A DNA stretch of 42,444 bases from Nitrospira sp. bin75 (lineage in GTDB: Bacteria; Nitrospirota; Nitrospiria; Nitrospirales; UBA8639). The position numbers and the translations under genes were made by a program. The notes under the pieces were generated by a model, which searched no databases, was not told the origin of the DNA, and worked only from the letters and a program-made list of their open reading frames with translations. Positions 4,496 to 27,580 of this stretch are shown in pieces; the stretch's first letter is position 1; every line of letters begins with the position of its first letter. The DNA lies in the NCBI GenBank assembly GCA_002238765.1, contig MPMZ01000023.1, positions 1-42,444 of the forward strand, in the 5' to 3' direction.

Positions 4496-6442
4496 ATGCC
4501 GAATCCGAATATCGCTGCTTACGGGTCATGGGCATCGCCCTTGACCTCGGACCGGATTGTCTCGGAATCCATCAGACTCGGACATATCGCCCTCGACGGG
4601 GATCAGGTGTTCTGGGTCGAAAGCCGTCCCAAGGAGGGCGGGAGAAATGCGATTGTCCAACGGGATGCCGACGGGACCCCTCACGCCCTGACCCCAGCCC
4701 CGTTCAACGTTCGCACGCGCGTCCATGAATACGGAGGCGGGGCATATTGCGTGGCGGACGGCGTCGTGTATTTTTCCAATTTTTCCGATCAGCGGCTGTA
4801 TCGACAACACCCGGGCGGAGCGCCCGAGCCCGTCACCGCGGACGCGCCCATGTGCTATGCCGACGGGGTCCCGGACCTTCGCCGCCGCCGCCTTCTTTGC
4901 ATTCGTGAAGATCATACCCATTCGGACCGGGAGCCCCACAACTCCATCGTCAGTATTGCTCTCGACAACGGCTCAGATCCCACGTGCGGTGACATTCTGG
5001 TCTCGGGCCATGATTTTTATGCCTCTCCACGCCTGAGCCCTGATGGACAACAGTTAGCCTGGCTGGCCTGGAACCATCCCAACATGCCATGGGACGGCAC
5101 GGAACTCTGGGTCGCCGATCTCGGACAGGACGGCTCGATACGAACTTCACGATGCATGGCCGGGGGAACCGACGTCTCCATTTTTCAACCGGAATGGTCG
5201 CCGGACGGCCGGTTGCATTTCGTATCAGATCAATCCGGCTGGTGGAACCTGTACCGGATGGACAACGAGCAAATCGACGCCCTCTATCCCATGGAAGCCG
5301 AATTCGGCGCACCGCAATGGGTGTTCGGCCAACGGCTCTACGGGTTCGAGTCGCCTGACCGCGTGATCTGCGCCTATACGCAGGACGGCTTTTGGTTCCT
5401 GGGACGTTTGGATACGGCACAAAAAACCCTCGAACGATTCGAGCTGCCCTACACGACCTTCGACGACGTCCACGTACAGCAATCCCGCATTGTGTGTACG
5501 GCCAGTTCCCCTGCCGAGCCAACGGCGCTCATTCGGATCGAAGCGGATTCACAGGCCGTCACCGTTCTTCGCCGTTCGGTGGATTTTTCCCCGGACCCCC
5601 GTTATCTGTCCACGCCCTCCGCCGTCACCTATCCCACGCAGGACGCTTCGACCGGGCACGCGTTCTATTACCCCCCGCACAATGCGGATTTCCAGGCCCC
5701 TTCTTCAGAGCGTCCGCCCCTCCTTGTCAAGAGCCATGGAGGCCCGACCGGAGCCTCTTCTCCGACGTTCAACCTGATGATTCAATATTGGACCAGCCGG
5801 GGATTCGCCGTGCTCGACGTGAACTACGGAGGAAGCACGGGATACGGACGGGCCTATCGGGAACGTCTCAACGGTCAGTGGGGCATTGTCGACGTGGATG
5901 ATTGCGTCAGCGCGGTCACGGCGCTCATCGACCGGGATGCCGTGGACCCGGCTCGCGTGACCATCACGGGAGGCAGCGCCGGGGGCTATACCACGTTATG
6001 CGCCCTGACGTTTCGCGATTGCTTTACGGCCGGGTCCAGTTACTACGGCGTCTCAGACCTCGAAGCGCTCGTTCGCGATACCCATAAATTCGAATCGCGC
6101 TACCTGGACCGCCTCGTCGGGCCGCTGCCCGAACGGAAAGACCTCTATGATCAGCGATCGCCCATTCACTTCACGGACCGGCTGTCCGCTCCCCTCATTC
6201 TCTTTCAGGGCCTGGAAGACAAGGTGGTCCCGCCGAACCAGGCGGAGAACATGTTCAACGCGGTGAAAGCGAAAGGGCTTCCCGTCGCCTATATCGCCTT
6301 TGAGGGGGAGCAGCACGGGTTTCGACGTGCCGAGCACATCAAGCAGGTCCTGGACAACGAACTGTATTTCTATTCGAAGATTTTCGGCTTCGTCCCGGCC
6401 GACCCGGTGGACACCTTCCCGATCGCCAATCTGGACGAATAA
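4496..6442 (+). CDS. S9-family prolyl oligopeptidase-type serine peptidase
   Basis: About 648 residues. The N-terminal two thirds shows WD/PD40-like beta-propeller repeats (for example SPDGQQLAWLAW and PEWSPDGRLHFVSDQ), and the C-terminal 250 residues are an alpha/beta-hydrolase. The catalytic triad is visible: Ser at about 494 in GGSAGGYTT, Asp in GLEDKVVPP (about 575) and His in EGEQHGF (about 606). This is the dipeptidyl-peptidase/acylaminoacyl-peptidase group, which cleaves short peptides in the cytoplasm; no signal peptide is seen. ATG at 4496 is preferred over the upstream TTG at 4487. It stands alone, and the 175 bases before it contain only a CTCCCC/GGGGAG hairpin near 4390-4410. Confidence 0.9.
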   Translation: MPNPNIAAYGSWASPLTSDRIVSESIRLGHIALDGDQVFWVESRPKEGGRNAIVQRDADGTPHALTPAPFNVRTRVHEYGGGAYCVADGVVYFSNFSDQRLYRQHPGGAPEPVTADAPMCYADGVPDLRRRRLLCIREDHTHSDREPHNSIVSIALDNGSDPTCGDILVSGHDFYASPRLSPDGQQLAWLAWNHPNMPWDGTELWVADLGQDGSIRTSRCMAGGTDVSIFQPEWSPDGRLHFVSDQSGWWNLYRMDNEQIDALYPMEAEFGAPQWVFGQRLYGFESPDRVICAYTQDGFWFLGRLDTAQKTLERFELPYTTFDDVHVQQSRIVCTASSPAEPTALIRIEADSQAVTVLRRSVDFSPDPRYLSTPSAVTYPTQDASTGHAFYYPPHNADFQAPSSERPPLLVKSHGGPTGASSPTFNLMIQYWTSRGFAVLDVNYGGSTGYGRAYRERLNGQWGIVDVDDCVSAVTALIDRDAVDPARVTITGGSAGGYTTLCALTFRDCFTAGSSYYGVSDLEALVRDTHKFESRYLDRLVGPLPERKDLYDQRSPIHFTDRLSAPLILFQGLEDKVVPPNQAENMFNAVKAKGLPVAYIAFEGEQHGFRRAEHIKQVLDNELYFYSKIFGFVPADPVDTFPIANLDE

Positions 6443-6512
6443 GGAAGAGACCCTTCCAACAAGCTGCAGCCGCACCATCCCTGTCTAGAGATAGGAACAT
6501 GCAGATCTGTCT

Positions 6513-6812
6513 TCAAACCAGGGATTTTTGGGACAATTCTTGCAGTACTTCAGGGTAGGACGTGACGACTCGCAGCACGGTCTTGGCTGCACCACGGGGA
6601 GACCGCCGGCCCTGCTCCCAGTCCTGGACTGAATCGACAGAAACATTGAGGAGTCTGGCAAATTGCCGCTGTGTCAATTTGACTGATTGGCGGGCGAAAA
6701 TGGCCAATAATTGCTCAGGCGTGTAGACGCGGCCTTTTTTCCCGGCCTTCATTTGTTTGACGGCTTGGAGTAGTTCAACGCCTTCTGCCGTCATTTTCCT
6801 TTTACCGGGCAT
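6513..6812 (-). CDS. HTH antitoxin (NadS/HigA2-like) of a RelE module
   Basis: About 99 residues. The C-terminal half is an XRE-type HTH: KLTQRQFARLLNVSVDSVQDWEQGRRSP, shown here only to name the segment, is typical of NadS-like antitoxins that pair with RelE-type toxins. The ATG at 6812 has a strong ribosome-binding site (GGAGG nine bases upstream) inside the end of the toxin gene. The two genes overlap by 11 bases, which indicates translational coupling. It probably represses its own operon, although no clear operator is seen. Confidence 0.85.
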   Translation of the reverse strand: MPGKRKMTAEGVELLQAVKQMKAGKKGRVYTPEQLLAIFARQSVKLTQRQFARLLNVSVDSVQDWEQGRRSPRGAAKTVLRVVTSYPEVLQELSQKSLV

Positions 6813-7137
6813 GATCAATTACCTCCTTGAGCAGCCGCAATTCTCCAGGTGGTATGGAGGAGCGTTCACTTTTCGCATAGACGGTCAATAACCAAATTTC
6901 ACCTTTTTCCAAACGATTAAAATATATTACGCGGACCCCACCACTCTTTCCGGCGCCTTCAAGTGCCCACCGTACTTTACGGACACCGCCGGACCCACGT
7001 ACGACAACGCCAGCTTTCGGGTTTCTTGATATGTAGACGGCAAAAGCGTCACGCTCATCCTCTGATAGAATCTGTTCCGCTTTCCTTGAATAAACCGGCG
7101 TTTCGATGACCGTGTACACATAAAGAGCATACGGCAT
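6802..7137 (-). CDS. RelE/ParE-superfamily toxin
   Basis: 111 residues with the RelE-like pattern: VIETPVYSRKAEQIL at the N-terminus, a central GGVRKVRWALEGAGKSGG, then VRVIYF and IWLLTVYAKSERS near the end. This is the HigB2-like type typically paired with an HTH antitoxin encoded downstream, as here. Such toxins act as ribosome-dependent mRNA interferases. The start at 7137 is not backed by a strong ribosome-binding site, and a GTG six codons later is possible. Confidence 0.85.
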   Translation of the reverse strand: MPYALYVYTVIETPVYSRKAEQILSEDERDAFAVYISRNPKAGVVVRGSGGVRKVRWALEGAGKSGGVRVIYFNRLEKGEIWLLTVYAKSERSSIPPGELRLLKEVIDHAR

Positions 7138-7175
7138 TGCCGTACAAAGATCAACCTGAGTTCATCTAGACAACG

Positions 7176-7313
7176 TCAGATGACCCATTGCCGGATCAGG
7201 GCCAGAATCTGCGTGGGCGACAATACGGAAATCGTTTTATCCAATTCATAGGCTTCATCGCCGGGATAGAGACGCCCGACTCCACCCGTCGCGGAATGCC
7301 GTCTCGACATCAT
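7176..7313 (-). CDS. Possible 45-residue protein translationally coupled to the repeat protein
   Basis: Two adjacent ATG codons (7313 and 7310) overlap the stop codon of the upstream repeat-protein gene. The frame then stays open for 45 codons, ending TQILALIRQWVI. It has no signal peptide or cysteines. The sequence is of mixed composition (it includes YPGDEAYELDKT) rather than low-complexity. Coupling makes it a plausible small gene; I recognise no family. Chance is a fair alternative given the short length. Confidence 0.35.
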   Translation of the reverse strand: MMSRRHSATGGVGRLYPGDEAYELDKTISVLSPTQILALIRQWVI

Positions 7314-8134
7314 TCCTCGTAGACCCCCGGCACGTCGTCCGGCCCGGCGCGCTCGATCTTCAATGCTTTGTTGTTCATGAGGACTTTCGCTTTGATCCGA
7401 TCCCCATATCCGAATTCTTCCGTGATCTCGGTCTTGCCCGTGGCTTCAATCTGGATCTCCCCTCGTTCGCTCCGCACGATGTAGAAGTCCCGGTCCACGT
7501 CCAGCAGATCAGCAATAATGGTCTTGGATTCCGGTTGCTTGGGCTGTGCCGAAGGCGCGGGGGCTTCCCCCTTGCCGCCCTCTTGGGGTGGAGGGGCTTG
7601 CGCGGTGGCCGGCAGATTTTCCGTGACCCCCGTAACGTCATCCGGCCCCGCCCGTTCAATTTTCACCGCCTTGTTGTTCATGAGGACCAAGGCCTTGATC
7701 CGGTCCCCATACCCAAATTCCTCCGTGATCTCGGTCTTGTGCGTAGCTTCGATCTGGATCTCACCCCGCTCCCCCCGCACGATGTAGAAGTCCCGGTCCA
7801 CGTCCAGCAGATCGGCTACAATCGTTTTGGATTCCGGTTGCAGAGGCTGCGCCGGCGCCGCAGGGGCTTCCCCCTTGCCGTCTTGTGGGGCTTCAGGGGC
7901 TTGCGCGGCGACCGGCAGATTTTCCGTCACTCCCGGCACGTCATCCGGCCCGGCGCGCTCGATCTTCAACGCCTTGTTGTTCATGAGCACGAGGGCCTTG
8001 ATGCGATCGCCGTATTGGAATTCTTCCGTGATGTAGGTCTTGTACGTAGCTTCGATTTGAATCTCACCCCGTTCGCCCCGCACGATGTAGAAGTCCCGGT
8101 CCACGTCCAGCAGATCAGCCACAATCGTTTTGGT
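7310..8134 (-). repeat. 303-bp tandem repeat, 2.7 copies, inside a coding gene
   Basis: Units at 8134-7832, 7831-7529 and 7528-7310. The marker string GTAGAAGTCCCGGTCC (plus-strand reading) occurs at 7481, 7784 and 8087, exactly 303 bases apart each time, which keeps the reading frame. Copy number could vary between strains by recombination or slippage. Confidence 0.9.
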
Positions 8135-13074: not shown

Positions 13075-13377
13075 CTACCGCCTTTCTACATCGTGCCTTT
13101 TCCAGCCGGGCACGTGAGCCGTCATGAGTGCCTTGAAGAGTTTGCCATGGTTGGGCACGCGCAGATGCAGTAGTTCGTGTGCGATAACAAAATTCTGAAA
13201 GCTCAATTCCTTATCGGCCAAGTCGTACGCCAGGGTCACGGTGCCCGACGTGGAACACGAACCCCACTTCTGCGTCATGTGCTGAACCCGGACCAGTCGC
13301 GGCCGGACGTTCAGACGCTGCGCCCAGTATGCAACGCGGTTCCGAATGACCTCGCGCCTTTTGTCATTCGTCTGCAT
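13075..13377 (-). CDS. YgjP-like (DUF45) zinc metallopeptidase domain protein
   Basis: 100 residues with the zinc motif [15 protein letters not shown] (HExxH-type, third ligand His in NHGK) preceded by [15 protein letters not shown], the YgjP/DUF45 signature. It is shorter than stand-alone YgjP proteins (about 170-240 residues), but small versions like this often accompany type I restriction genes. It overlaps the 3' end of hsdR by 14 bases, so it is co-transcribed with it. Whether it is proteolytically active or has a regulatory role on the restriction enzyme is not known. Confidence 0.85.
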
Positions 13378-16315
13378 CAGCGCCTTCGTCCAAAAGAATT
13401 GAGAGGATGAGCTTCACGACACGGCTCCGTTCCTCTTTGTCCAGTCGCAGGAGCAGACGATAGAGAACCATGCGCAGCCGCCGTTGCTCGTCGGAGTTGA
13501 CGGCAGCATTGGGAAAGCGCGTGAGAAGATCTTCCGTTTCCTTCGCCAAGTCCATGGCCGCGATACCCGTTGCGCCGAAGCCCGAATCATTCTTCAGCGT
13601 CCAATACACGCCGAAGGCACGCGGCGAGAGACCACTTTCCTTCGCCGCCTTGACTGCTTCTTCCTTTTCCCTGGCAATGTCGGCTAGCAGATCCATGGCC
13701 GCGAGCCCGGTCGTTTTGCGCTCTTCCAAGTCTTTCAGGACTTGTTCGGCGCGATCCTTGAGCGGCCGCAGCACGGCGGCCGATTCACGATTGTCCTCAA
13801 CCTCACGGTGTAGGCCGCGCACAAGGTTGAACACCTTAGCTTCATCGGAGCCCGATTCCCCTCGAAGCGCTTCGAGGGTGCTCACGTCGAACGTCACGGT
13901 TTTCGTCCGGTAACCGAGGCCTTGCTGAACGGCGCCATCCTGGATCAGCGAGCGCGTCTTGTTGGCGAGGTCTATCACGTAATTAACCTTGCTTGTGTAG
14001 GCGTTCCGGACGGCCGCGTAGAGTTGCGCAAGCTGCTTGTACGTCCCGATATGATCGCGAAGCTCAGGCGAGGGCGAGAGAATTTCCCAAAGCGCTTCGA
14101 TCTCCTTGTAAGTCTCGAAGAACACCTTGCGCGGCTCCGGGTCCAGGAAGCGTCCATAGACGATTTCCTCAAGATGCTCGTCTGCGCCGCCGCTCCTCTC
14201 TCCGGTGAGGTAGTCCGTTCTCGCCCGCTCGATCTTATCGAAAAAGTCAGCCAGCAGAAGGTCGAGGTCTTCGATTACGCCGCTCACGTCCGTGGAATCA
14301 AACCGTAGCGCCTTCCGCAACTCGCGTAACACGCCGACGAAATCGACCACGAGACCGATGCGTTTGCGAGTGCCGATCGCATCCACGTAAGGCCGGTTCA
14401 CGCGCGCAATCGCCTGCAAGAGCACGTGGTCGCGCATCGGCTTGTCGAGATACATGCAATACAGAAGAGGCGCATCATAGCCCGTCAGCAGCTTGTCGGT
14501 GACAATGAGGATCTTCGGATTCTCATCCGCTTTCTTGAACATGAGACGCACGTCCGCCTCGCGTTCAGGGGAAAGCTGGAGTTCAGAGACCAGCGGGCGT
14601 TCCACAACGTCGTTGACGTTTTCCGTGTACACCGGCGCAGTCCAGTCGGGTGGCAACAGCCTGTCGAGTGCACGCTTGTACTTGGCGCAGGCTTCGCGGT
14701 TCACACCGACGAGGAACGCCTTATAGCCAAGCCGGTCCACGTTCTCTTTGAAGTGCTCGGCCACAAACGCCGCGACCTTCTCGATCCGATCATCGGCGGT
14801 GAGGAACGTACGCAGGCCGACGGCTCGATCAAGGACCTTGTTGAGTTCATCGACGTCGGTGACGCCCTCGAATTCGGCCAAGGCGAAAAACTCCTTGTCG
14901 AGTCGCTCCGCCGGTACCGTCATCTCGCTCGGGGCCATCGTGTGGCGGATCGGCAGCGTCGTCTCATCTTCGATCGACTCGGCGATAGTGTACTTGTCGA
15001 GATAGCCTAATTCGTCGTCGGCACCAAAGATCTTGAAGGTGCCCTCGCCCTGGGCCGTCTTGTCGATGGGCGTGCCGGTAAACCCGATGATCGTCGCGTT
15101 GGGCAAGGCTGCCATCAGGTACGTGCCCAAATCCTTGGCTACCGACCTGTGCGCCTCGTCGATGAATACGTAGACGTTGTCACGGGTATTGGCGTCTTTC
15201 TCGATCCCCTCGAACTTGTGGATCATCGAAAGGATCAGGCCGCGCTTGTCGGTTTGGAACAGTTCCCGGAGTTCGGCCTTGGAACCGGCGCGCCAGACCG
15301 CGATGTCCTGCTGTTGCATCTCGCTGAGCAGCCTCTCGACCCAACCCTTGAGTTGTCCCTCAAGCTCCGTCCGGTCCACGACCACCACGACCGTCGGCGT
15401 GCGGAACCGGTCTGCGCGCTCCAGGATCAGGCGCGCGGCAGTAAGCAATGTAAAAGTTTTGCCGGAACCCTGCGTATGCCAGATAAGCCCGCGCCGCTTC
15501 GCCGGCTCCTCGCAGCGGTCGACAATGAGATCGATCGCACGACGCTGATGCTGCCGAAGTACCGACTTTCTGGTTTCACCGCCCTCGACATAGAAGAGGA
15601 TCCAATCCCGTAACGTGCGCAGAAAGGCGACCGGCTCGAAGAACGATTGTACGGCAAACAGGTAGCTCTCCTCGGGCCGTTCCTTCCAGCGCGCCATGTG
15701 CCGGCGCGACGCGTTCCAGGTGACGCCGTACCAGTATTCGATCAAGTGCGTGACGTTGAAAAGTTGCGGCGAGGCTATCAACTCGGGGGTCTCGATTTCA
15801 TAACGTCGCAGTTGTGTGACAGCCCGCTCAATGGCATCGGCATCCTTGGGGTTCTTGTGCTCGACGATGGCAACCGGCACACCGTTGATCACAAACATCA
15901 CGTCCGCCCGGTTGCCCTTCCGGGCCGGGGGCTTGAGCTTCCATTCCCAGGTGACGTGATAGACGTTGGCGCCCGGCGTCTCGAAATCGACGAGCCGTAC
16001 ACGTCGGTGACGCTTCTCATCCTCGTCGTACCATTGCCGCTCGCCGTGCAGCCAAGCGAGCATCTCACGGTTGCCCTCGATGGTCGGAGGGATCGCCTCG
16101 ATCCTCTCGACCACGGAGCGGATAACGTCGTCCGTCATCCAGGGATTGAATCGCCCGAGTGCTATTTCAAGCTCGTCCCGGAACAGCATCCCAGCCTCAC
16201 CACCGCGCTTATGCAGCGCCATTTCCGGCTGAAGGGGCGTCCAGCCGATCTCCTCCGCGTGGCGAACCATAGGAAACTGGACCGAGCCGGCTTCGGTGAT
16301 CTTGAGGTCACTCAT
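13364..16315 (-). CDS. hsdR: Type I restriction enzyme R subunit
   Basis: About 983 residues. The N-terminal nuclease domain shows the PD-(D/E)xK pattern ending in VEHKNP. Two RecA-like motor domains follow, with Walker [16 protein letters not shown]-box FIDEAHRS and the FTGTPID motif, and a helical C-terminal region binds HsdM. HsdR translocates and cleaves DNA lacking the modification placed by HsdM/HsdS. ATG at 16315 is chosen because AGAAGG precedes it; the frame is open further upstream to 16357. Its partner genes hsdM/hsdS lie 7.7 kb away on the same strand, separated by a different operon and TA genes. Confidence 0.93.
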
Positions 16316-16371
16316 ATCAAACCTTCTCTGCACACCAGACGCACTTTGAGACGACATGATTGAGCGAATCG

Positions 16372-17231: not shown

Positions 17232-17432
17232 CTATCTGGCGCGGGTCGCAAGCAGAGCCCGCACGGCAGGCACCAACTCGTTGGGGATCTCCATCACCGT
17301 CTGCGTGGAGTCCTCGAAAGCGGCCTCATCCTCGGCAACCGCTTCTTCCTCTGTCAGCGAGTCGTAGTGCTGAAGGACGCGTTGGACGCGCGCTTCGTCC
17401 CATCCTGGCGGGAAGTTGGTCTTGTTCTTCAT
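17232..17432 (-). CDS. Small antitoxin-like protein paired with a DUF4258 toxin
   Basis: 66 residues starting MKNKTNFPPGWDEARVQRVL, then an acidic middle (EEEAVAEDEAAFED) and a C-terminal MEIPNELVPAVRALLA. The acidic, partly disordered character and position directly after a DUF4258 gene with a 4-base overlap suggest the antitoxin of the pair. A decayed copy of its 5' end is found before hsdR. Confidence 0.75.
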   Translation of the reverse strand: MKNKTNFPPGWDEARVQRVLQHYDSLTEEEAVAEDEAAFEDSTQTVMEIPNELVPAVRALLATRAR

Positions 17433-17713
17433 CTTCCTCTCCTTTTCATGCGCCTCCGAAAAGCGGTAAGCGGTTTACCTCTTAGTTCGTATGCCGTAAT
17501 GACGAAGGCCTGATCCGGTTCGCGGTCGGGCACATAGATGACCCTGAGGTAACGTCCGCCAAGCGTCCTGCCGATGGCAATGCGCGCGCCCTCTCGCCCG
17601 GGCCGGTCTTCACTCGGCGATGCCAAGACGTCCTCGACTTCGCTCTCCTCAACTCCATGAGAAAAAATATGAGGATAGCCCGTTTCTCGGTCAACATAGA
17701 ATCTGAGATGCAC
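17429..17713 (-). CDS. DUF4258/BrnT-like toxin
   Basis: 94 residues with FYVDRETGYPHIF at the start, HGVEESEVEDVLASP, and the strand VIYVPDREPDQAFVITAYEL near the end. This is the DUF4258 RelE-like fold family. It starts at GTG 17713 with GGAG upstream and overlaps the antitoxin-like gene by 4 bases. Predicted activity is mRNA cleavage by analogy with the superfamily; no residues prove it. Confidence 0.75.
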   Translation of the reverse strand: MHLRFYVDRETGYPHIFSHGVEESEVEDVLASPSEDRPGREGARIAIGRTLGGRYLRVIYVPDREPDQAFVITAYELRGKPLTAFRRRMKRRGR

Positions 17714-17997: not shown

Positions 17998-18216
17998 CTA
18001 CGGTTTCGTTCGATTCCTGGTAAGCACGGCCTTGGCTCGTTTGAGCATTTCGATTGCCTGGTGACGCGACACCGTGGGGTAGCTTTCCAGAAAATCGTCA
18101 AGTCGATCGCCCGCTTCCAAATACTCGATCAGAATACGTATAGGGACCCGGGTTTCGGAAAACACCGGAGTTCCGCCAAGGATTTCAGGGGCTTTGTTGA
18201 TTAGTTTGTCGGTCAT
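17998..18216 (-). CDS. DUF433 (VapB45-like) antitoxin, orphan
   Basis: About 72 residues: MTDKLINKAPEILGGTPVF, then TRVPIRILIEYLEAGDRLDDFLE and a C-terminal VSRHQAIEMLKRAKA. This is the HTH-containing DUF433 family that normally neutralises DUF5615 PIN-like toxins. Its partner seems decayed. It starts 33 bases after the methyltransferase stop and could ride on that operon. ATG at 18216 is the conventional start. Confidence 0.8.
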   Translation of the reverse strand: MTDKLINKAPEILGGTPVFSETRVPIRILIEYLEAGDRLDDFLESYPTVSRHQAIEMLKRAKAVLTRNRTKP

Positions 18217-18249
18217 GCCACATCGAACCACCGTTCCGACCACAAGCTG

Positions 18250-19464
18250 TCATCGTTTCTCAAACATGACCACGCTTTCTCGGGCCGCCATGCGTCCGTA
18301 CTTTCCCATCTGCTGCGCACTATTCCCACGCCACCGCACTGCTCGTATTTCCTTGCAGGTCAGACCTGCCCGCTCCCCGATTTCCGCGGTGAACTCATCA
18401 ACGAGGATAGCCGTGCCGTCGTATTGTGTATTCCCCACGACGAACGCCGCCTTCGCACCTTTGCGACAAACACGGGCAACTTCGCAAAGACATAGATACA
18501 TGTCCAGAAAATATCCCTCTAACATGCACTGCATACGCTTGTCAGTAAGATCGCGAATACTACCGTTCAAAGCCTTCGGTGGCTTGTATCTTCTGGCCGA
18601 CGGTCGATTCGGACGAGCTTCCGGGTGAGAATGGAACGTCTGATATCTAAGGGCTCGATTTGCTTCCCAGTCATGAAAGGCAAACATCAATTCGACACCA
18701 AAGATCCGCGTATAGTCATGCCGATTCGGGTACGGTGGCGAAGTAATCACGGCTGAGTACACTGCATCGGAAGCCGGCATCACTCGCGCATCCGCGACAC
18801 GGGCTTTCCAATATCTATTGCTTTGGAAGGCTGTGTCACAAACATCCGACAACATCATCTCAACTTGCTCCTCGAAAAAAATCGTAACGTTCTTGGCACC
18901 AGCGCCTTGTTTCGACCATCTCAACCAACCTCCGTTTGCGACCGCATAGCTGAAACGCGGTATGATAGAAATCAACGCCAATCGGAAGAAGTCCCGTTCA
19001 GAGGACGAACAACCGAGACTCTCAATGCCACTGGCGATTCTATCGAATACTGCAAGCCGTCCCCTTGGGAGCGCCTTGCGAACCAGTTCCGGGTAGGCAC
19101 GGCCTATGGGTGCCATGCGTCCTGACCTTAATGCACGTTGCAGAATCTGCCATAGCTTTTTCAACCGCTGTCTGGAGAAAGTAACGGTCTTGGTATTGGA
19201 TGCAAGAACGGCAAGCGGGGAAAGATCATAACCGTCACTCGGAACGCCCATTTCCTTTGCGGCCAATAGCGTTGTTCCCGAACCGGCGAAGGGATCAAGG
19301 ATCCTATCCTGACCGTTAAGACCCCATTCATGAATCAACGCGTGGACGAGATCGTCGGTGAAGCTGTGAGGAAATAGATACCAACGGTGGACGGCCTTCT
19401 CTTTGGCACCCCTTGGAGTGACCCAATGCCTCCACTCTGTCTGTTCAGTCGCTTGCCAATTCAT
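18250..19464 (-). CDS. DNA methyltransferase (N4-cytosine or N6-adenine type), last gene of a four-gene operon
   Basis: 404 residues. The SAM-binding motif I is DPFAGSGTTLL at residue 57 and the catalytic motif IV is TSPPYPNRHDYT at residue 241. Motif I comes before motif IV with about 180 residues between, an alpha-like order with the target-recognition region in the middle. The TSPPY form occurs in both N4mC and N6mA enzymes, so the product base is open. It is unrelated in layout to HsdM. Its ATG overlaps the PIN-like gene's stop by 4 bases. The context (AAA ATPase, PIN-like protein) suggests self-marking or target sensing in a defence system, which is inference. Confidence 0.85.
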   Translation of the reverse strand: MNWQATEQTEWRHWVTPRGAKEKAVHRWYLFPHSFTDDLVHALIHEWGLNGQDRILDPFAGSGTTLLAAKEMGVPSDGYDLSPLAVLASNTKTVTFSRQRLKKLWQILQRALRSGRMAPIGRAYPELVRKALPRGRLAVFDRIASGIESLGCSSSERDFFRLALISIIPRFSYAVANGGWLRWSKQGAGAKNVTIFFEEQVEMMLSDVCDTAFQSNRYWKARVADARVMPASDAVYSAVITSPPYPNRHDYTRIFGVELMFAFHDWEANRALRYQTFHSHPEARPNRPSARRYKPPKALNGSIRDLTDKRMQCMLEGYFLDMYLCLCEVARVCRKGAKAAFVVGNTQYDGTAILVDEFTAEIGERAGLTCKEIRAVRWRGNSAQQMGKYGRMAARESVVMFEKR

Positions 19465-20264
19465 AGTGAACCATCGGCTCCAGAGACAGACAAATTGGGC
19501 TTTAGCGTACCGTCAGCCGTGATCGTGTGAGCACTTGGCAACTCAATGGCATCGGCATTTCCTAGTGTAATCTGGCTGACAAGCTGCTGAAGTTTCCGCC
19601 TCATCTCTTCATAGCGAGATTCGCCATTCGGACTGTGAATATAGTTTGCGGTCTCCTTAAGATATCCGTCTGCAGTAAACAAAAAATCCGCTTGGGCAAC
19701 TAATGCACTTGCGTAAATAATACTGTCCATGGCCGCCATATAAACCAACCCGTTGATGCCCTTTGCCAACTCCAACGCCTCGCTCGTCTGGTCGCTGCGG
19801 CTTGTCTTGACGGCAACACCTGATTCCTCCAGCATGGAGGTTAGTCTATCGACCTTATCCTTGATATCCGCCAAATCGGTGGAGGCTACTCGTTCACGAA
19901 TCTCATCTTCATGAAAGCGCGACCACATTCGATCCGGCACACCTTCTTTCGCCGCGCTCATGATGGCTTTTCCTTTGGTTTTTCCAGTAAGCAATTCAAG
20001 CTCTGAAACAGGCGCATATTCAACTTGCACATCCTGCGTCGAAAGAAAATAGACAGTTTCTAGACCTCGTTTAAGGCTTTTCTTGAGATCGACTTCCGCT
20101 AAGTTGTTCACATTCTCTGCCGCAGCCTCTTTTTCTTTCGCCGCGTCATTGGCACCTCTCGGAAACAGATCATTCTCCTTCGCATATTCCAGGTAGATTC
20201 CGATGTAATGTAGTGTGTTCGTGTCCAAGAACGCTAATTTCTGCAATGCATTCCGATCATTCAT
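19461..20264 (-). CDS. PIN-like domain protein (putative nuclease)
   Basis: 267 residues. The PIN fold pattern is visible: FLDTNTLHYI with Asp14, an acidic SELELL at 87-92, then MDSIIYASALVAQADFLFTAD with Asp180 and Asp199, matching the D-E-D-D positions of metal-dependent PIN nucleases. It is longer than VapC toxins (about 130 residues) because of a charged helical insert at about 30-70 and 95-160. It overlaps the ATPase gene upstream and the methyltransferase gene downstream by 4 bases each. A single-strand RNA or DNA nuclease acting as the effector of the operon is plausible but not shown. Confidence 0.7.
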   Translation of the reverse strand: MNDRNALQKLAFLDTNTLHYIGIYLEYAKENDLFPRGANDAAKEKEAAAENVNNLAEVDLKKSLKRGLETVYFLSTQDVQVEYAPVSELELLTGKTKGKAIMSAAKEGVPDRMWSRFHEDEIRERVASTDLADIKDKVDRLTSMLEESGVAVKTSRSDQTSEALELAKGINGLVYMAAMDSIIYASALVAQADFLFTADGYLKETANYIHSPNGESRYEEMRRKLQQLVSQITLGNADAIELPSAHTITADGTLKPNLSVSGADGSL

Positions 20265-21445
20265 GGCTTTGCGTTCCCGGTTGGAGACAAGCTGGGATAA
20301 AGTTCGTCTTCGATTTTGTAAAGATACTCCTTGGTAAATGGTAGCTGTACGTCAGCATCAGCCTGCGCAATCGCTCGAAAACATGTCTTTACGAGCCGCC
20401 TAGGATTGGAGTACGTGCTGGGGCGAAAGAGAACATCATCCGGAAACGGAAAAAGAACTCCTGTTGATTCTTTCATCTTTTTTAATCGAGCAGCGGCTAT
20501 CCGCGATTTCATGAGTTTGAGCGCGTCCTTTTTGGTCAAGGTGTCAATCTTGATTGTTTGGTCAGAGACGCGCTCAATCAGCGAAGGCTCAAGTTCTTTG
20601 GTGATCTCGTAGGCATCAGGCGTCATCGACAAAATGATCCAGAAGTCAACCTGTTGACTTTGAGCAAGGTTGATCAACCGTTTCAACGTGGCCAGGTAGT
20701 CATGTGCCGCCCGTTTAGTAAGACGTTTCTGAAGGCCTATTTCCTCGAATTCGTCGATCAGAAACGCAATGGCCTTCGCACCCGTCCCCTGCGAGATCGT
20801 TTTCAAGATTGCGCGGAAGTACGGTGCTTCCTCCCCTTCAGGAACCATGCTGCCTTTCTGCTGAGGTATAAAGTCTCGAAATTCGAAGTATGGTTTCTTA
20901 ACAATGTCAGTAACGATCCGCGCAAGACAGTGCGCGATCTCTTCGTCAGTTGTGATACCTGCAATCTTGACGGCATCCTGGAGGGGGCTTGTCATGTCCT
21001 GTTGACGACGCCGATGGGAAGCGTTGGATAAATATTCCTCAAAACCACTTTGAAAAAGCGTTCTCTGATATGAAACGTTCACTTTCGAGCCAGCAAGTTC
21101 CCAGATAAATTTTGCAAAATCCTTGCGGCCGATAGTGCGTAACAACATATTGGCGAGGTCGTAGAATTGCACCCCGGGGTTGTCAAAGTAGAACGACTTG
21201 ATTTGGCGTCTTGGACAGACTTGCCCATGGAGCCACTGCAAGAGGCATGTTTTTCCGGTCCCATACTCACCGACAATGACGATGGCCTTGACACCCTCTC
21301 CAGTCTCGTGCACGCTGAAGAGATTTTCCATCCTCTCTGCCAATGCATTCGGGGGCGAGAGGACGCCCGAGAGAGGTTCACCTGTTGCAGAGGGCTCGAA
21401 AGGATTGGAATCAAGCCAGAGTTTTTGAAGGATGTCGGTCCTCAT
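20261..21445 (-). CDS. AAA-family ATPase (Orc/Cdc6-like P-loop)
   Basis: 394 residues. It opens LQKLWLDSNPFEPSATGEP, followed by Walker A GEYGTGKTC (59-67), Walker B AIAFLIDEFEEIG with the DE pair at 231-232, and a sensor-1-like FWIILSMTPDAYE near 270-280. NPRRLVKTCFRA near the C-terminus resembles the lid and sensor-2 region of STAND/Orc-like ATPases. The insertion between Walker A and B is long (about 160 residues). It overlaps the preceding gene by 35 bases. Such ATPases often act as sensors or loaders in defence operons; the substrate is unknown. Confidence 0.8.
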   Translation of the reverse strand: MRTDILQKLWLDSNPFEPSATGEPLSGVLSPPNALAERMENLFSVHETGEGVKAIVIVGEYGTGKTCLLQWLHGQVCPRRQIKSFYFDNPGVQFYDLANMLLRTIGRKDFAKFIWELAGSKVNVSYQRTLFQSGFEEYLSNASHRRRQQDMTSPLQDAVKIAGITTDEEIAHCLARIVTDIVKKPYFEFRDFIPQQKGSMVPEGEEAPYFRAILKTISQGTGAKAIAFLIDEFEEIGLQKRLTKRAAHDYLATLKRLINLAQSQQVDFWIILSMTPDAYEITKELEPSLIERVSDQTIKIDTLTKKDALKLMKSRIAAARLKKMKESTGVLFPFPDDVLFRPSTYSNPRRLVKTCFRAIAQADADVQLPFTKEYLYKIEDELYPSLSPTGNAKP

Positions 21446-22490
21446 GGTCTGTGACCTCCATAGATTTGACCGTTACGTCTTTGTGTATGCGAATGTGGGA
21501 AATATAGGGACTATTTGAAGTCTTGTAATACCTTCTCAACTCTAGAGTCTCCCTTTGCGGAGACGTTGCCGATAGCGTCGCGAGGGCACGAGACGTCGGG
21601 ATCAGAACAATATGATTCGGCCATTCGTGAAGCAACCAATCGATCGCACCAAAAAGCACGCTGATCGGTTGTCTGCGTGCTTCACAGCAATGAGCGATGA
21701 GATCGAAAACGGAGAATCGCATCCACTCACCTGCAGCCCGTAGAGAAAGTAGGTAGCGCACCGTCTGCATTACAGCAGAGTTGATTCCTGTGGTAGAAGT
21801 GCTAGGCCGAGACACAGGAAACATGCTCGCACTCCCGTCAGAGCGTTGACAGTATTCGTCTATAAGTCGTAATTCATCACGCGCCCAATAGCGAACTCCA
21901 TATAGAATCGCAGCCACGCTTGCGGGTGATGAACAACACGCTGTGCGGCCTGTTGTGTCGTTTTGAAAAACGATCTCCGTTGCGCGAGAAGAATGCTCAC
22001 GGGACCACCTAACGGGGACTCCCTTTTGCCGGAAACTGGTAACAGAATCGAAGCTTCCGTCTGACGGCATGAAAAGATCAAAGAAAAGCGACCTGCATTG
22101 TTCATTGTTCAGCACCAGTGCTGCAAACGAGTCTCTCGCAGCATCACTTAGCGACTGATCTCCGTTGGCCGGGGCTGGCTGACGTAGCAGCTCGCAGACA
22201 TCGGGATTATCGGCGTTGACATGCAACATACGTCCATCTCGCTTGAGTGCGCGTAGGTGGAGCAAGGCATTTCGATAATGATAAAGGGTTGTAAGCGCTG
22301 GAGGTGAACTACGCCGAGTAAGCGAGATGTCCTTTTCTTGCACTAATTTGTTGAGTTCGCCAGCCCTTAGACCATTCGGAAAGACGGCAACGGCTTTCAA
22401 AATGCGATGTAGCCCGGCAAAGGAGATAGACCTCATCCAGTACTCACTCTGCTGCAGGCGGTCCTTGCTAGGACGTTGTAGCTGTTTCAT
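21411..22490 (-). CDS. Unrecognised protein with a probable winged-helix N-terminus, first gene of the operon
   Basis: About 359 residues from ATG 22490. This start is chosen because AGGA precedes it and an extended -10 lies 36 bases upstream; the frame is open to 22604, but that part would lie before the promoter. Residues 15-80 alternate helices with a GLRAGELNKLV and LTTLYHYRNALLHL pattern that fits a winged helix. Further helices follow with no motif I recognise, and the end is polar. It may be the DNA-recognition or regulatory part of the operon. No enzyme motif is visible. Confidence 0.7.
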   Translation of the reverse strand: MKQLQRPSKDRLQQSEYWMRSISFAGLHRILKAVAVFPNGLRAGELNKLVQEKDISLTRRSSPPALTTLYHYRNALLHLRALKRDGRMLHVNADNPDVCELLRQPAPANGDQSLSDAARDSFAALVLNNEQCRSLFFDLFMPSDGSFDSVTSFRQKGVPVRWSREHSSRATEIVFQNDTTGRTACCSSPASVAAILYGVRYWARDELRLIDEYCQRSDGSASMFPVSRPSTSTTGINSAVMQTVRYLLSLRAAGEWMRFSVFDLIAHCCEARRQPISVLFGAIDWLLHEWPNHIVLIPTSRALATLSATSPQRETLELRRYYKTSNSPYISHIRIHKDVTVKSMEVTDHEDRHPSKTLA

Positions 22491-22525
22491 GTCGTTATTC
22501 CTCTGTGTCCGAGCGTCGGAAGAGT

Positions 22526-22534
22526 ATATTAGCA
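22526..22534 (-). promoter_or_regulatory. Extended -10 promoter of the four-gene operon
   Basis: On the minus strand TGCTAATAT forms an extended -10 (TGn then TAATAT). A transcript would start near 22519, about 30 bases before the ATG at 22490. No convincing -35 is seen, as usual for extended -10 promoters. This suggests that the operon is transcribed separately from the upstream restriction genes. Confidence 0.45.
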
Positions 22535-22646
22535 CGGACAACAAATGGCAGGCGAACAGCAGTTTCCGGAGGGCTAATGACTTGCTGCTTGGAGCGAGAT
22601 TCATCCGTGCAAGCTGCTGATTATCGACCGATAATGAGCTATGTCA

Positions 22647-23202: not shown

Positions 23203-24009
23203 TCAACTTTTTGCACGTTCCTTGTTCCAGGAAACCACATCACCTGCGCGCATGCTTATCTGGCACTTTTTACAGGTTACCTGGTCATCTGGATCCGGCT
23301 CCTCTTTCTCCCTCTGCCACTCCGAACTTCCGCATTGCGGGCATACTATATTGATCCTCCGTAGTGCTGGTGAGGTTGTTACTCCGAGTTCTTTTCCGGC
23401 TCTGGTGATTTTCCACCTTATGGATCCGTCTTCATCGAAGTGAGCCGTAGCCAAGTGTTCCCCTCGTCCACTTCCTACACGTATACTTTCCCGCCAGCCG
23501 TCAAAGGTATTTTCGCCGACCATTTCGACGATCTCTGCATGAACAATCGCGAGACTTGGGATTACCAGTCCGGGCACACCATGAACGAAGCCTACTCCCC
23601 TTAGTTCTCCTTTTCTTCCTACCATCCAGTATTTCCTATCTGGATGACACATTCTTTCGTCCAGATATTTAAGAAGGTTCTCAATTGTATTTGGCGTATT
23701 CTCTTCTACAAATTTCTTGATTCTTGCCTGACTCTTCGTTCCAAGATTCCGATAATTCTTCTCCGCTTCGTGCTTCTTTGTGATGGGACGTCCTTCACTT
23801 TTCGCCAGCGCCTTCAAAGCTAACTCAAATGCAAGTCCTGTGCATACATGTGCCACGTTCAGTTCATTGCTGTCGGTCTCGACATCATGCCGTCCGCGTC
23901 CACTTCTTTGGTCTTTTTCTAGGGCGGTCTTCATCCATACTTGGCTGTCGCCCAGCCAGTTGCTAATTGGCGCTCGATCCTCGATCTTGATCGTTCTCTT
24001 GAAGTTCAT
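23203..24009 (-). CDS. Zinc-ribbon protein with HEPN-like N-terminus, coupled to hsdS
   Basis: 268 residues. The C-terminal 40 residues form a zinc ribbon: CPQCGSSEW and CKKCQIS. The N-terminal 120 residues are helical, with VAHVCTGLAFELALKALAKSEGR, reminiscent of HEPN-type helices, though the catalytic RX4-6H motif is not clearly present. Its ATG overlaps the hsdS stop by 4 bases (ATGA), so it belongs to the restriction operon. A role as accessory or regulatory subunit of the type I system is inferred from coupling alone. Confidence 0.6.
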   Translation of the reverse strand: MNFKRTIKIEDRAPISNWLGDSQVWMKTALEKDQRSGRGRHDVETDSNELNVAHVCTGLAFELALKALAKSEGRPITKKHEAEKNYRNLGTKSQARIKKFVEENTPNTIENLLKYLDERMCHPDRKYWMVGRKGELRGVGFVHGVPGLVIPSLAIVHAEIVEMVGENTFDGWRESIRVGSGRGEHLATAHFDEDGSIRWKITRAGKELGVTTSPALRRINIVCPQCGSSEWQREKEEPDPDDQVTCKKCQISMRAGDVVSWNKERAKS

Positions 24010-25346
24010 GATTTTCTTTCAGATGTGGATGCATATTTGCCACTGGTTCCTTTCAGCTTTAGCGGCGAATCGTGGGGCAATTGTAGTGCCGAGAGGTTGA
24101 GTTCGGCGACGCGAATTTCGCCCGTCATCAGTTTGTGCAGCAGCACTTTGAACAGGTCGCCCAGTACGGCGCGTTTTCGGCGGTGCAGGTCGATTTTGCG
24201 ATCGATGGCCTCCAAGATGGTGACGATTTCGCGCTGCTCCTCCAGAGTAGGCGGCAATGGAAGTGGCAGGGCGTCAATTGTTCCGGTGTTTAAATTGTAT
24301 TTGCCATCCGCTGCTGGAGTAGCACGCCCTGCTATTACACTGGTGCCGAGTTCCGATCCGAAGAAATACGCCATGAAGTGTGGATCGACCTGGTCGAGCT
24401 TGAGACTCGCTCGTATAAGATATGATGCGAAGAGCGCATTTTTGGGGTTGCCGGTATAGACGGCACAGGCCCCCAGCCGCTCGACAACACCGTTGGTTCT
24501 GATTAAGACTAGGTCGCCGTTTTTCAGCCTGTAGCGATCCGCCTCAGTAGAGCGAAGCCCGCCAAATTTTAGGTCCGCATCGTTGACTCGGCCCGGCTCG
24601 ACGTTCGGAATTCTGAGAACAGGAAATTCGGTCGGCTCATAGCTGCAACGGGTTGATGTACCATATTGGAGCCACTCTCGAACCGTGCTAAAATCAACAA
24701 TTTCCCAACTCGCCGGCACCGGGCCGATCTCGGTTTCCTTCTGCGTTTCGCCTCGTAACCCGTGAGTGAACAGTGATCGCATTGTGGCGCGTTTCAATTC
24801 CAGGGCAAGCGCAATGCTTTGATCGTGCGTCTTGATGGCGTCCCGTATCCTTGCAAGCACCGCGACGATGGCCTGCTGCTCGTCGAGCATTGGCTGCGGT
24901 ACATGTAGCACTGCCAGCCGGCTACGCGAGAGGTTCGGGATCGTCGTCTTGTTGCCTGCGCCCTCAAAGATGCCGAGTTGGGTGAAGGCGCATTGCAGGA
25001 AGTACACGTAGAAGCGCGGCTCGACCTCTTCAACGACGGGGCGTAGCCGATGCAAGTGGTTCTGGAACGACATCGTTTCAACTTCGCCACCCCAGATTGC
25101 CGCACGCCCGATCTCTCCGCCTTCACATACAAGGAGATCGCCTCGGCTCAGCAGTTTGCCGGGCAACTCATGCTCGGGGATCGACATCCGGTCAACCGAC
25201 TCCAAGTCTATCTCGTCCCAGAGGACGTTGGACGTCCGGAGGAACGGCGTCTTGTCTGCACCGTTGCGCGCCGCGGCGGACATTGTTTTGCCGGCGCCGA
25301 TCTCGAACAACTCTCCAAGAGAGCGCCACGTCCATATGTCGTTCAT
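24006..25346 (-). CDS. hsdS: Type I restriction-modification specificity subunit
   Basis: 446 residues with two target-recognition domains, each followed by a conserved helical spacer: LDEQQAIVAVLARIRDAI and LEEQREIVTILEAIDRKI. The pairing with HsdM encoded upstream is standard. The two recognition halves differ (residues 1-150 and 215-370), so the DNA target is expected to be bipartite and asymmetric. The gene is complete; the C-terminus has an extra 40-residue polar tail. It starts 14 bases after the aspartic-protease-like gene. Confidence 0.93.
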   Translation of the reverse strand: MNDIWTWRSLGELFEIGAGKTMSAAARNGADKTPFLRTSNVLWDEIDLESVDRMSIPEHELPGKLLSRGDLLVCEGGEIGRAAIWGGEVETMSFQNHLHRLRPVVEEVEPRFYVYFLQCAFTQLGIFEGAGNKTTIPNLSRSRLAVLHVPQPMLDEQQAIVAVLARIRDAIKTHDQSIALALELKRATMRSLFTHGLRGETQKETEIGPVPASWEIVDFSTVREWLQYGTSTRCSYEPTEFPVLRIPNVEPGRVNDADLKFGGLRSTEADRYRLKNGDLVLIRTNGVVERLGACAVYTGNPKNALFASYLIRASLKLDQVDPHFMAYFFGSELGTSVIAGRATPAADGKYNLNTGTIDALPLPLPPTLEEQREIVTILEAIDRKIDLHRRKRAVLGDLFKVLLHKLMTGEIRVAELNLSALQLPHDSPLKLKGTSGKYASTSERKS

Positions 25347-25360
25347 TGCAGTCCCGACAG

Positions 25361-25723
25361 CTACTTCAACCGCACGGCAGGCAGTCTCTTCAACCGCTGA
25401 TTCAGTGGGTCCACCTCTATGCCGACGGACTCCAGCGCCGTCACGCCCAGTAACGGCTCCGCGTTAGCCTCGCCGAAGATGACCGTCCCGCCAACGAATT
25501 CACCCATGAACTCGATCTTGACAACAGCGATGTCCACCGTAATCTCGCTCCCATCGGCCAGTTCATACAGGCGCTTCCCCTCGGGCTTGAGGCCGATGGC
25601 CTCCAGGTGAGGCCGGGGCACCAGGGAATCGGTAGACCCCGTATCAACCAGAAACAGCCCTTCCCAAAACCGGTCAGGATCCGCGGGGTTAGTAATCCTG
25701 ACCGTCACGTGAGTTGCTCCCAT
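25361..25723 (-). CDS. Retroviral-type aspartic protease (clan AA)
   Basis: About 120 residues from ATG 25723, which has GGAGG six bases upstream. The active-site motif is LFLVDTGSTDSLVPR (D-T-G), and the hydrophobic-hydrophobic-G near the end is PLLGVTALESVGI, both features of clan AA proteases that work as dimers. It sits between hsdM and hsdS in the same operon. A processing or turnover role for a restriction subunit is conceivable; nothing in the sequence shows its substrate. Confidence 0.85.
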   Translation of the reverse strand: MGATHVTVRITNPADPDRFWEGLFLVDTGSTDSLVPRPHLEAIGLKPEGKRLYELADGSEITVDIAVVKIEFMGEFVGGTVIFGEANAEPLLGVTALESVGIEVDPLNQRLKRLPAVRLK

Positions 25724-25756
25724 TTTCCTACCTCCTTCGCTCTTGAGCATCCATGT

Positions 25757-27580
<1,824 letters not shown>

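Follow-up and report, generated by a model that had tools for sequence, protein, structure and literature searches.

What kind of system is encoded by four overlapping genes, for a winged-helix protein, an AAA ATPase, a predicted nuclease and a DNA methyltransferase, that lie inside a type I restriction-modification (R-M) locus of a Nitrospira genome? We analysed them within the window, the whole 42,444-nucleotide stretch of DNA (Nitrospira contig C28) from a 3.04-Mb genome, and all coordinates below are window coordinates unless another locus is named. The four-gene cassette spans 18250–22490, entirely on the minus strand.

18250–19464, minus strand: DNA methyltransferase (MTase), 404 aa
19461–20264, minus strand: predicted PIN-domain nuclease, 267 aa
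20261–21445, minus strand: AAA ATPase, 394 aa
21411–22490, minus strand: tandem winged-helix (multi-wHTH) protein, predicted to recognise DNA, 359 aa
22491–22556, minus strand: candidate promoter and leader, with extended −10 TGCTAATATACT and an AGAGGAA ribosome-binding site
13364–16357 and 24006–27580: type I R-M locus enclosing the cassette (hsdM, clan AA aspartic protease, hsdS, hsdR)

Read 5′ to 3′, the genes run from winged-helix protein (22490–21411) through ATPase (21445–20261) and PIN protein (20264–19461) to MTase (19464–18250), and their coordinates confirm the overlaps of 35, 4 and 4 bases claimed for them. The winged-helix start is placed at 22490, and not at an upstream ATG, because the homologue in a genus-mate (G008, Nitrospira sp. 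SB0677_bin_15) is also 359 aa long. With start codons in the relatives picked by similarity, the winged-helix-to-ATPase, ATPase-to-PIN and PIN-to-MTase spacings are −35/−4/−4 in G008, −32/−4/+13 in a Latescibacterota cassette, and −41/−4/+6 and −8/−4/+39 in two Acidobacteriota cassettes; an overlap of 1–4 bases between the ATPase and PIN genes is retained in every same-order locus. The original prediction of a single coupled operon is borne out, and cannot be put down to chance because the same order recurs in five other genomes. The operon was also said to have its own extended −10 promoter. By consensus alone this promoter is weak (the candidate CTGCCA-17-TATACT is one of 8 matches, and shuffles yield 4.3 ± 2.0), but the extended −10 TGnTAATATACT is retained in G008, at the extreme edge of the cross-species homology block, and the claim is plausible.

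Distant genomes keep the four genes side by side and in one order. Five further loci with the full set have proteins 26–91% identical to those of the window: Nitrospira (G008, 78–91%), Latescibacterota (52–82%), Acidobacteria bin61 (40–62%), Vicinamibacterales, which is a second Acidobacteriota lineage (43–64%), and a planctomycete (26–51%); ATPase and winged-helix homologues in L004 were established by tblastn. Three Bacteroidales genomes have a permuted order, namely MTase, X (about 310 aa), ATPase and a PIN-like gene. Their ATPase and MTase are homologous to those of the window (22–25% identity, E about 1e-19) and the PIN acids are present in their PIN-like proteins, while hhalign comparison of the Bacteroidales X and PIN with the window proteins, using shallow profiles, gave no signal. 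The cassette is clearly rare: an ATPase scan of 84,980 species genomes, which rested on two peptide patterns and had limited recall, returned eight loci, and about nine are known in total. Outside the cassette, the PIN protein was absent from 396 Nitrospirota, 297 Acidobacteriota and 294 Planctomycetota genomes. The ATPase was likewise absent outside it from 197 relatives of the window genome, 64 Latescibacterota and 189 genomes of bin61's phylum, save for a decayed Latescibacterota copy and a 56-residue match to the Walker A region in G036 (E = 5.5e-4). Plasmids yielded none of the window's ATPase, PIN and winged-helix proteins, and three scans of viral contigs yielded no ATPase.

The gene identities were correctly predicted, and the first protein goes beyond a generic wHTH. 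The ATPase has the motifs GEYGTGKT and IDEFEEI and a sensor-2-like SNPRRLVK; its homologues all retain Walker A, Walker B and the SxPR arginine. It matches Pfam AAA_22 (4.2e-11) and, through a local Walker A match, narrowly passes BrxC_BrxD (PF10923; 4.6e-5, 23.0 bits against a gathering threshold of 22.2). It misses the NCBIfam BrxD cut-off widely (18.8 of 350 bits), and its matches to BrxD, mad8 and SspC are weak, those to SspC (E = 0.018 for the window ATPase and 0.00095 for the planctomycete one) indicating the same broad AAA class. By sequence, the protein is an ATPase of the BrxC/BrxD (Orc/Cdc6) type.

Pfam, PADLOC and NCBIfam hold no match to the winged-helix protein. Its structural model (pLDDT 68, pTM 0.56) predicts one winged helix at residues 20–117, aligning with MarR/PadR-like rows, and a second at 235–338, aligning with an MCM-type winged helix (Z 6.3, rmsd 1.7). 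Among the low-rmsd alignments, the longest, which is also the best multi-domain match, pairs residues 18–229 with FokI's DNA-binding part (167 residues, Z 7.4), a borderline value since generic winged helices also reach 7; SspB (6juf) ranks lower (Z 5.2, rmsd 15), and Foldseek returned nothing significant. Sequence comparison did not tie the protein to SspB or FokI. The modelled likeness to the FokI DNA-binding part, a relative of SspB, is suggestive.

The PIN protein matched no sequence family above any cut-off. For its AlphaFold2 model (pLDDT 75.5, pTM 0.78), PIN/VapC chains filled almost all of the best VIA-align rows, reaching Z 8.6, and the top Foldseek matches were also PIN proteins, but not significantly so (E = 0.17). 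Six homologues, with identities as low as 26%, all keep the four acids D14, E90, D180 and D199; together with the modelled fold these acids place the protein, as a prediction, in the PIN/VapC nuclease superfamily. Sequence searches of solved structures with PIN, ATPase and winged-helix profiles returned no significant relative. VapC/PIN toxins have the fold and the four acids in common with the cassette PIN, whereas the latter is double their length, contains a helical insert and belongs to a four-gene set. A plain VapBC toxin–antitoxin pair was rejected, as the PIN gene is flanked by genes for the 394-aa ATPase and the 404-aa MTase, with no small antitoxin.

The MTase carries motif I (DPFAGSGTT) followed by the catalytic motif IV (TSPPY), and the motif residues (FxGxGTT, SPPY) are invariant across 10 homologues. 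It matches Pfam N6_N4_Mtase (1.9e-9) and, over almost its full length, PADLOC MTase_II (PDLC03224, 4.9e-60). SPPY is commoner among N4-cytosine enzymes and does not by itself tell which base is modified. A 55% identical relative in another genome, G017, occurs without the other three cassette genes, and the MTase is therefore an exchangeable part that is not exclusive to the cassette. The locus of that relative (L027, 6498–14398) also encodes a HerA-type ATPase, a type IIG enzyme and a 381-aa NurA-looking protein without a Pfam match; it is another composite system using the cassette's MTase family. Around more distant MTase relatives (27–33%) in L028–L033, tblastn did not find the other three genes.

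As a set, the four proteins match no named system in PADLOC, NCBIfam or Pfam. The original prediction named three outcomes that would refute it, namely such a match, genes that do not stay together and variable PIN acids; all three were looked for and none was found, so that the original interpretation is supported in part. PADLOC 2023 and NCBIfam 2026 contain no model for it, the sole full-length match being the generic MTase_II, and no description of an operon combining an MTase, Orc/Cdc6, wHTH and PIN was found in the open-licence PMC literature. Excerpts of two surveys (PMC10853773, PMC12839542) describe systems built on Orc/Cdc6 and wHTH with a restriction endonuclease or helicase, not on an MTase and PIN core. 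The claim of an unrecognised type holds for the set itself, but its logic is the Ssp layout, a theme already described (PMC10853773). There, the triple-wHTH SspB and the Orc/Cdc6 ATPase SspC form a pair. Ssp phosphorothioate operons (SspABCD-SspE and SspFGH) likewise unite a modification enzyme with an ATPase of the Orc/Cdc6 class and a protein built of several winged helices, which in the cassette are modelled, whereas the cassette's modifier is a SAM methyltransferase in place of the PAPS-reductase-like SspD, and its effector would be the PIN protein. PADLOC and Pfam detect neither SspD/SspA sulfur-modification enzymes nor SspE/SspFGH in the cassette, and SspB has no sequence-level match there.

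The cassette lacks a defining part of each of BREX/Pgl, DUF499/Hma, Ssp, type I R-M and VapBC. BREX type 2 and Pgl have in common with it a methylation basis and an ATPase that passes BrxC_BrxD by a small margin, but were rejected as the cassette loci lack PglX, PglZ, PglW and BrxHI; the predicted difference from BREX and Pgl stands, with PglZ and PglX absent from both the cassette and the Nitrospira locus. DUF499-centred, BREX-related systems (Hma) follow a similar logic of ATPase, DNA MTase and nuclease in a short operon, whereas the cassette lacks DUF499 and a helicase and has PIN in place of the helicase-nuclease. With type II R-M methylases (PDLC03224) it shares the MTase itself, accompanied by three other genes instead of a cognate restriction endonuclease. 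HsdR, HsdM and HsdS lie outside the cassette, next door in Nitrospira only; the original prediction that there is no HsdR-like motor is right for the cassette but not for the enclosing locus, which has HsdR. Haloarchaeal DpdA/TGT loci have an ATPase homologous to that of the window (21% identity, E = 4e-11), with an HTH-like protein of ~300 aa and a DNA-modification enzyme ahead of it; unlike the cassette, their modifier is a 7-deazaguanine transglycosylase and no PIN gene is annotated beside the ATPase. On three haloarchaeal plasmids (L042–L044, about 5000–8113), DpdA/TGT, the ~300-aa HTH-like protein and the BrxD-like ATPase occur in a fixed order, and this three-gene set may serve 7-deazaguanine modification in archaea. 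As Ssp and the haloarchaeal loci have a comparable pair, the combination of winged-helix protein and ATPase seems to work with several modification chemistries. We rate the cassette as joining a known theme, modification-guided defence with an Orc/Cdc6-type ATPase, in which the MTase and PIN core is newly seen.

We propose that the cassette is probably a compact modification-guided defence system with an Ssp-like layout, comprising a reader-loader, a marker and, as effector, PIN. A complex of the Orc/Cdc6-like ATPase with the multi-winged-helix protein would load on DNA and read it to locate target sites, which the MTase would mark wherever they occur in the host genome. When the sites on incoming DNA are unmarked, the ATP-bound complex would instead activate the PIN nuclease, which would halt the infection; we infer the methylation specificity, the sensing of unmethylated sites and the activation of PIN. 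In favour of this reading, the BrxC/BrxD-type ATPase and the FokI-like winged-helix model match the SspC/SspB pairing (PMC10853773). It is further supported by the shared gene order across phyla and its permuted Bacteroidales form, the invariant catalytic residues of all three enzymes, the near absence of the PIN and ATPase families elsewhere, the horizontal movement and sharp borders of the cassette, the decayed copy and the defence neighbours. Weighing against it are the borderline FokI likeness, the non-significant Foldseek result for PIN, the Bacteroidales X and PIN proteins that shallow profiles did not link to those of the window, the G017 MTase and the small number of loci. The PIN target could be RNA, giving abortive infection, or invader DNA, giving true restriction; RNA is favoured by most prokaryotic PIN precedents.

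A different division of labour is possible but rather unlikely: the winged-helix protein and ATPase would mainly deliver the MTase to its sites, and PIN would act apart from them as an alarm effector, set off once something such as a phage anti-restriction protein obstructs methylation or the complex (a guard that triggers abortive infection). The Ssp wHTH and Orc/Cdc6 subunits belong to the modification machinery (PMC10853773, PMC8092258), and PIN RNases are listed among the endoRNases associated with Dnd loci (PMC10853773). PIN is also the fastest-evolving part of the cassette (53% identity between Nitrospira and Latescibacterota, compared to 76% for the ATPase and 81% for the MTase), as expected for a swappable effector. 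However, the G017 MTase does without the winged-helix and AAA genes, which suggests that targeting by them is unneeded.

DNA homology between the window and G008 extends over 18248–22556 (84.7% identity), running past the MTase stop by 2 bases and, at the other end, reaching 66 bases ahead of the first ATG. Cassette and promoter are a discrete homology block, of four genes and a 66-base leader with non-homologous small genes on either side, within a type I R-M locus that is homologous elsewhere; its hsdM, hsdR and protease genes are 89–91% conserved in G008, but its hsdS only about 49%. Between Nitrospira and Latescibacterota, the ATPase (76%) and MTase (81–82%) are far more similar than RpoB (56%), and the cassette has therefore been transferred horizontally. 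A second Latescibacterota genome (L036, 3925–5403) holds the decayed copy, with the same flanks as the intact one; its winged-helix gene is truncated, PIN and MTase are deleted and the ATPase is intact. The joint loss of PIN and MTase would fit a nuclease that endangers the cell when the mark is missing, but a single deletion can account for it.

In the window, the cassette sits between hsdS/hsdM and hsdR, together with small toxin–antitoxin-like genes. It had been placed in a defence island; this is correct for the type I R-M locus and its toxin–antitoxin-like genes, but the outer flanks carry transporter and metabolism genes. Between the cassette and hsdR (17232–17713 and 17998–18243) are a pair of small ORFs resembling BrnTA by eye and a DUF433 gene, which are not conserved in place in G008. 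The aspartic protease gene (clan_AA_DTGF, 25361–25750), between hsdM and hsdS and 90% identical in G008, is an unusual component for type I R-M. Farther out, an apparent ergothioneine cluster of this Nitrospira-like genome (31838–37734) encodes an FGE-sulfatase (EgtB-like), a Methyltransf_33 protein (EgtD-like), a class V aminotransferase and a betaine-type transporter.

Defence genes adjoin the Acidobacteriota, Planctomycetota and Bacteroidales copies, and the neighbours of copies outside the window include a McrB-type AAA with HNH, a type IIG enzyme with YhcG, an AbiEii-like AAA with DUF4276 and a PLD-helicase. This argues against a non-defence role, as does the patchy spread and cross-phylum transfer typical of defence genes. 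We consider it very unlikely that the cassette is a mobile addiction element or serves regulation or repair through methylation, with the MTase as a marker and PIN processing cellular RNA or DNA, even though one Latescibacterota copy lies among metabolic genes and an MTase with a nuclease can behave as a selfish addiction pair. Least probable of all, and dropped as a part of type I R-M, is an accessory without independence, a backup effector between hsdS and hsdR: both Nitrospira copies sit in the same hsdM-hsdS...hsdR locus, its hsdM and hsdR well conserved, but the association is not kept outside Nitrospira, the cassette has its own MTase, and the Latescibacterota, Acidobacteriota, Planctomycetota and Bacteroidales loci contain no hsdM or hsdR, so that the cassette stands on its own.

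For the preferred reading, a modification-guided defence system, a stronger form can be advanced only tentatively: that the cassette is a distinct R-M class, in which a PIN protein carries out restriction under the control of an Orc/Cdc6-type ATPase and of a multi-winged-helix protein that reads methylation status, with the same reader-loader joined to methylation in the cassette, to phosphorothioation in Ssp and to 7-deazaguanine modification in haloarchaea. With four genes in about 4.2 kb, the cassette would be among the smallest systems to combine a DNA mark, ATP-driven sensing of sites and a nuclease. Because of this small size, four proteins would suffice to study how an Orc/Cdc6-type ATPase that meets an unmarked site turns a nuclease on, a question that also stands for BREX and Ssp. 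The cassette would also show the reader-loader pair to be a general adaptor for various DNA modifications.
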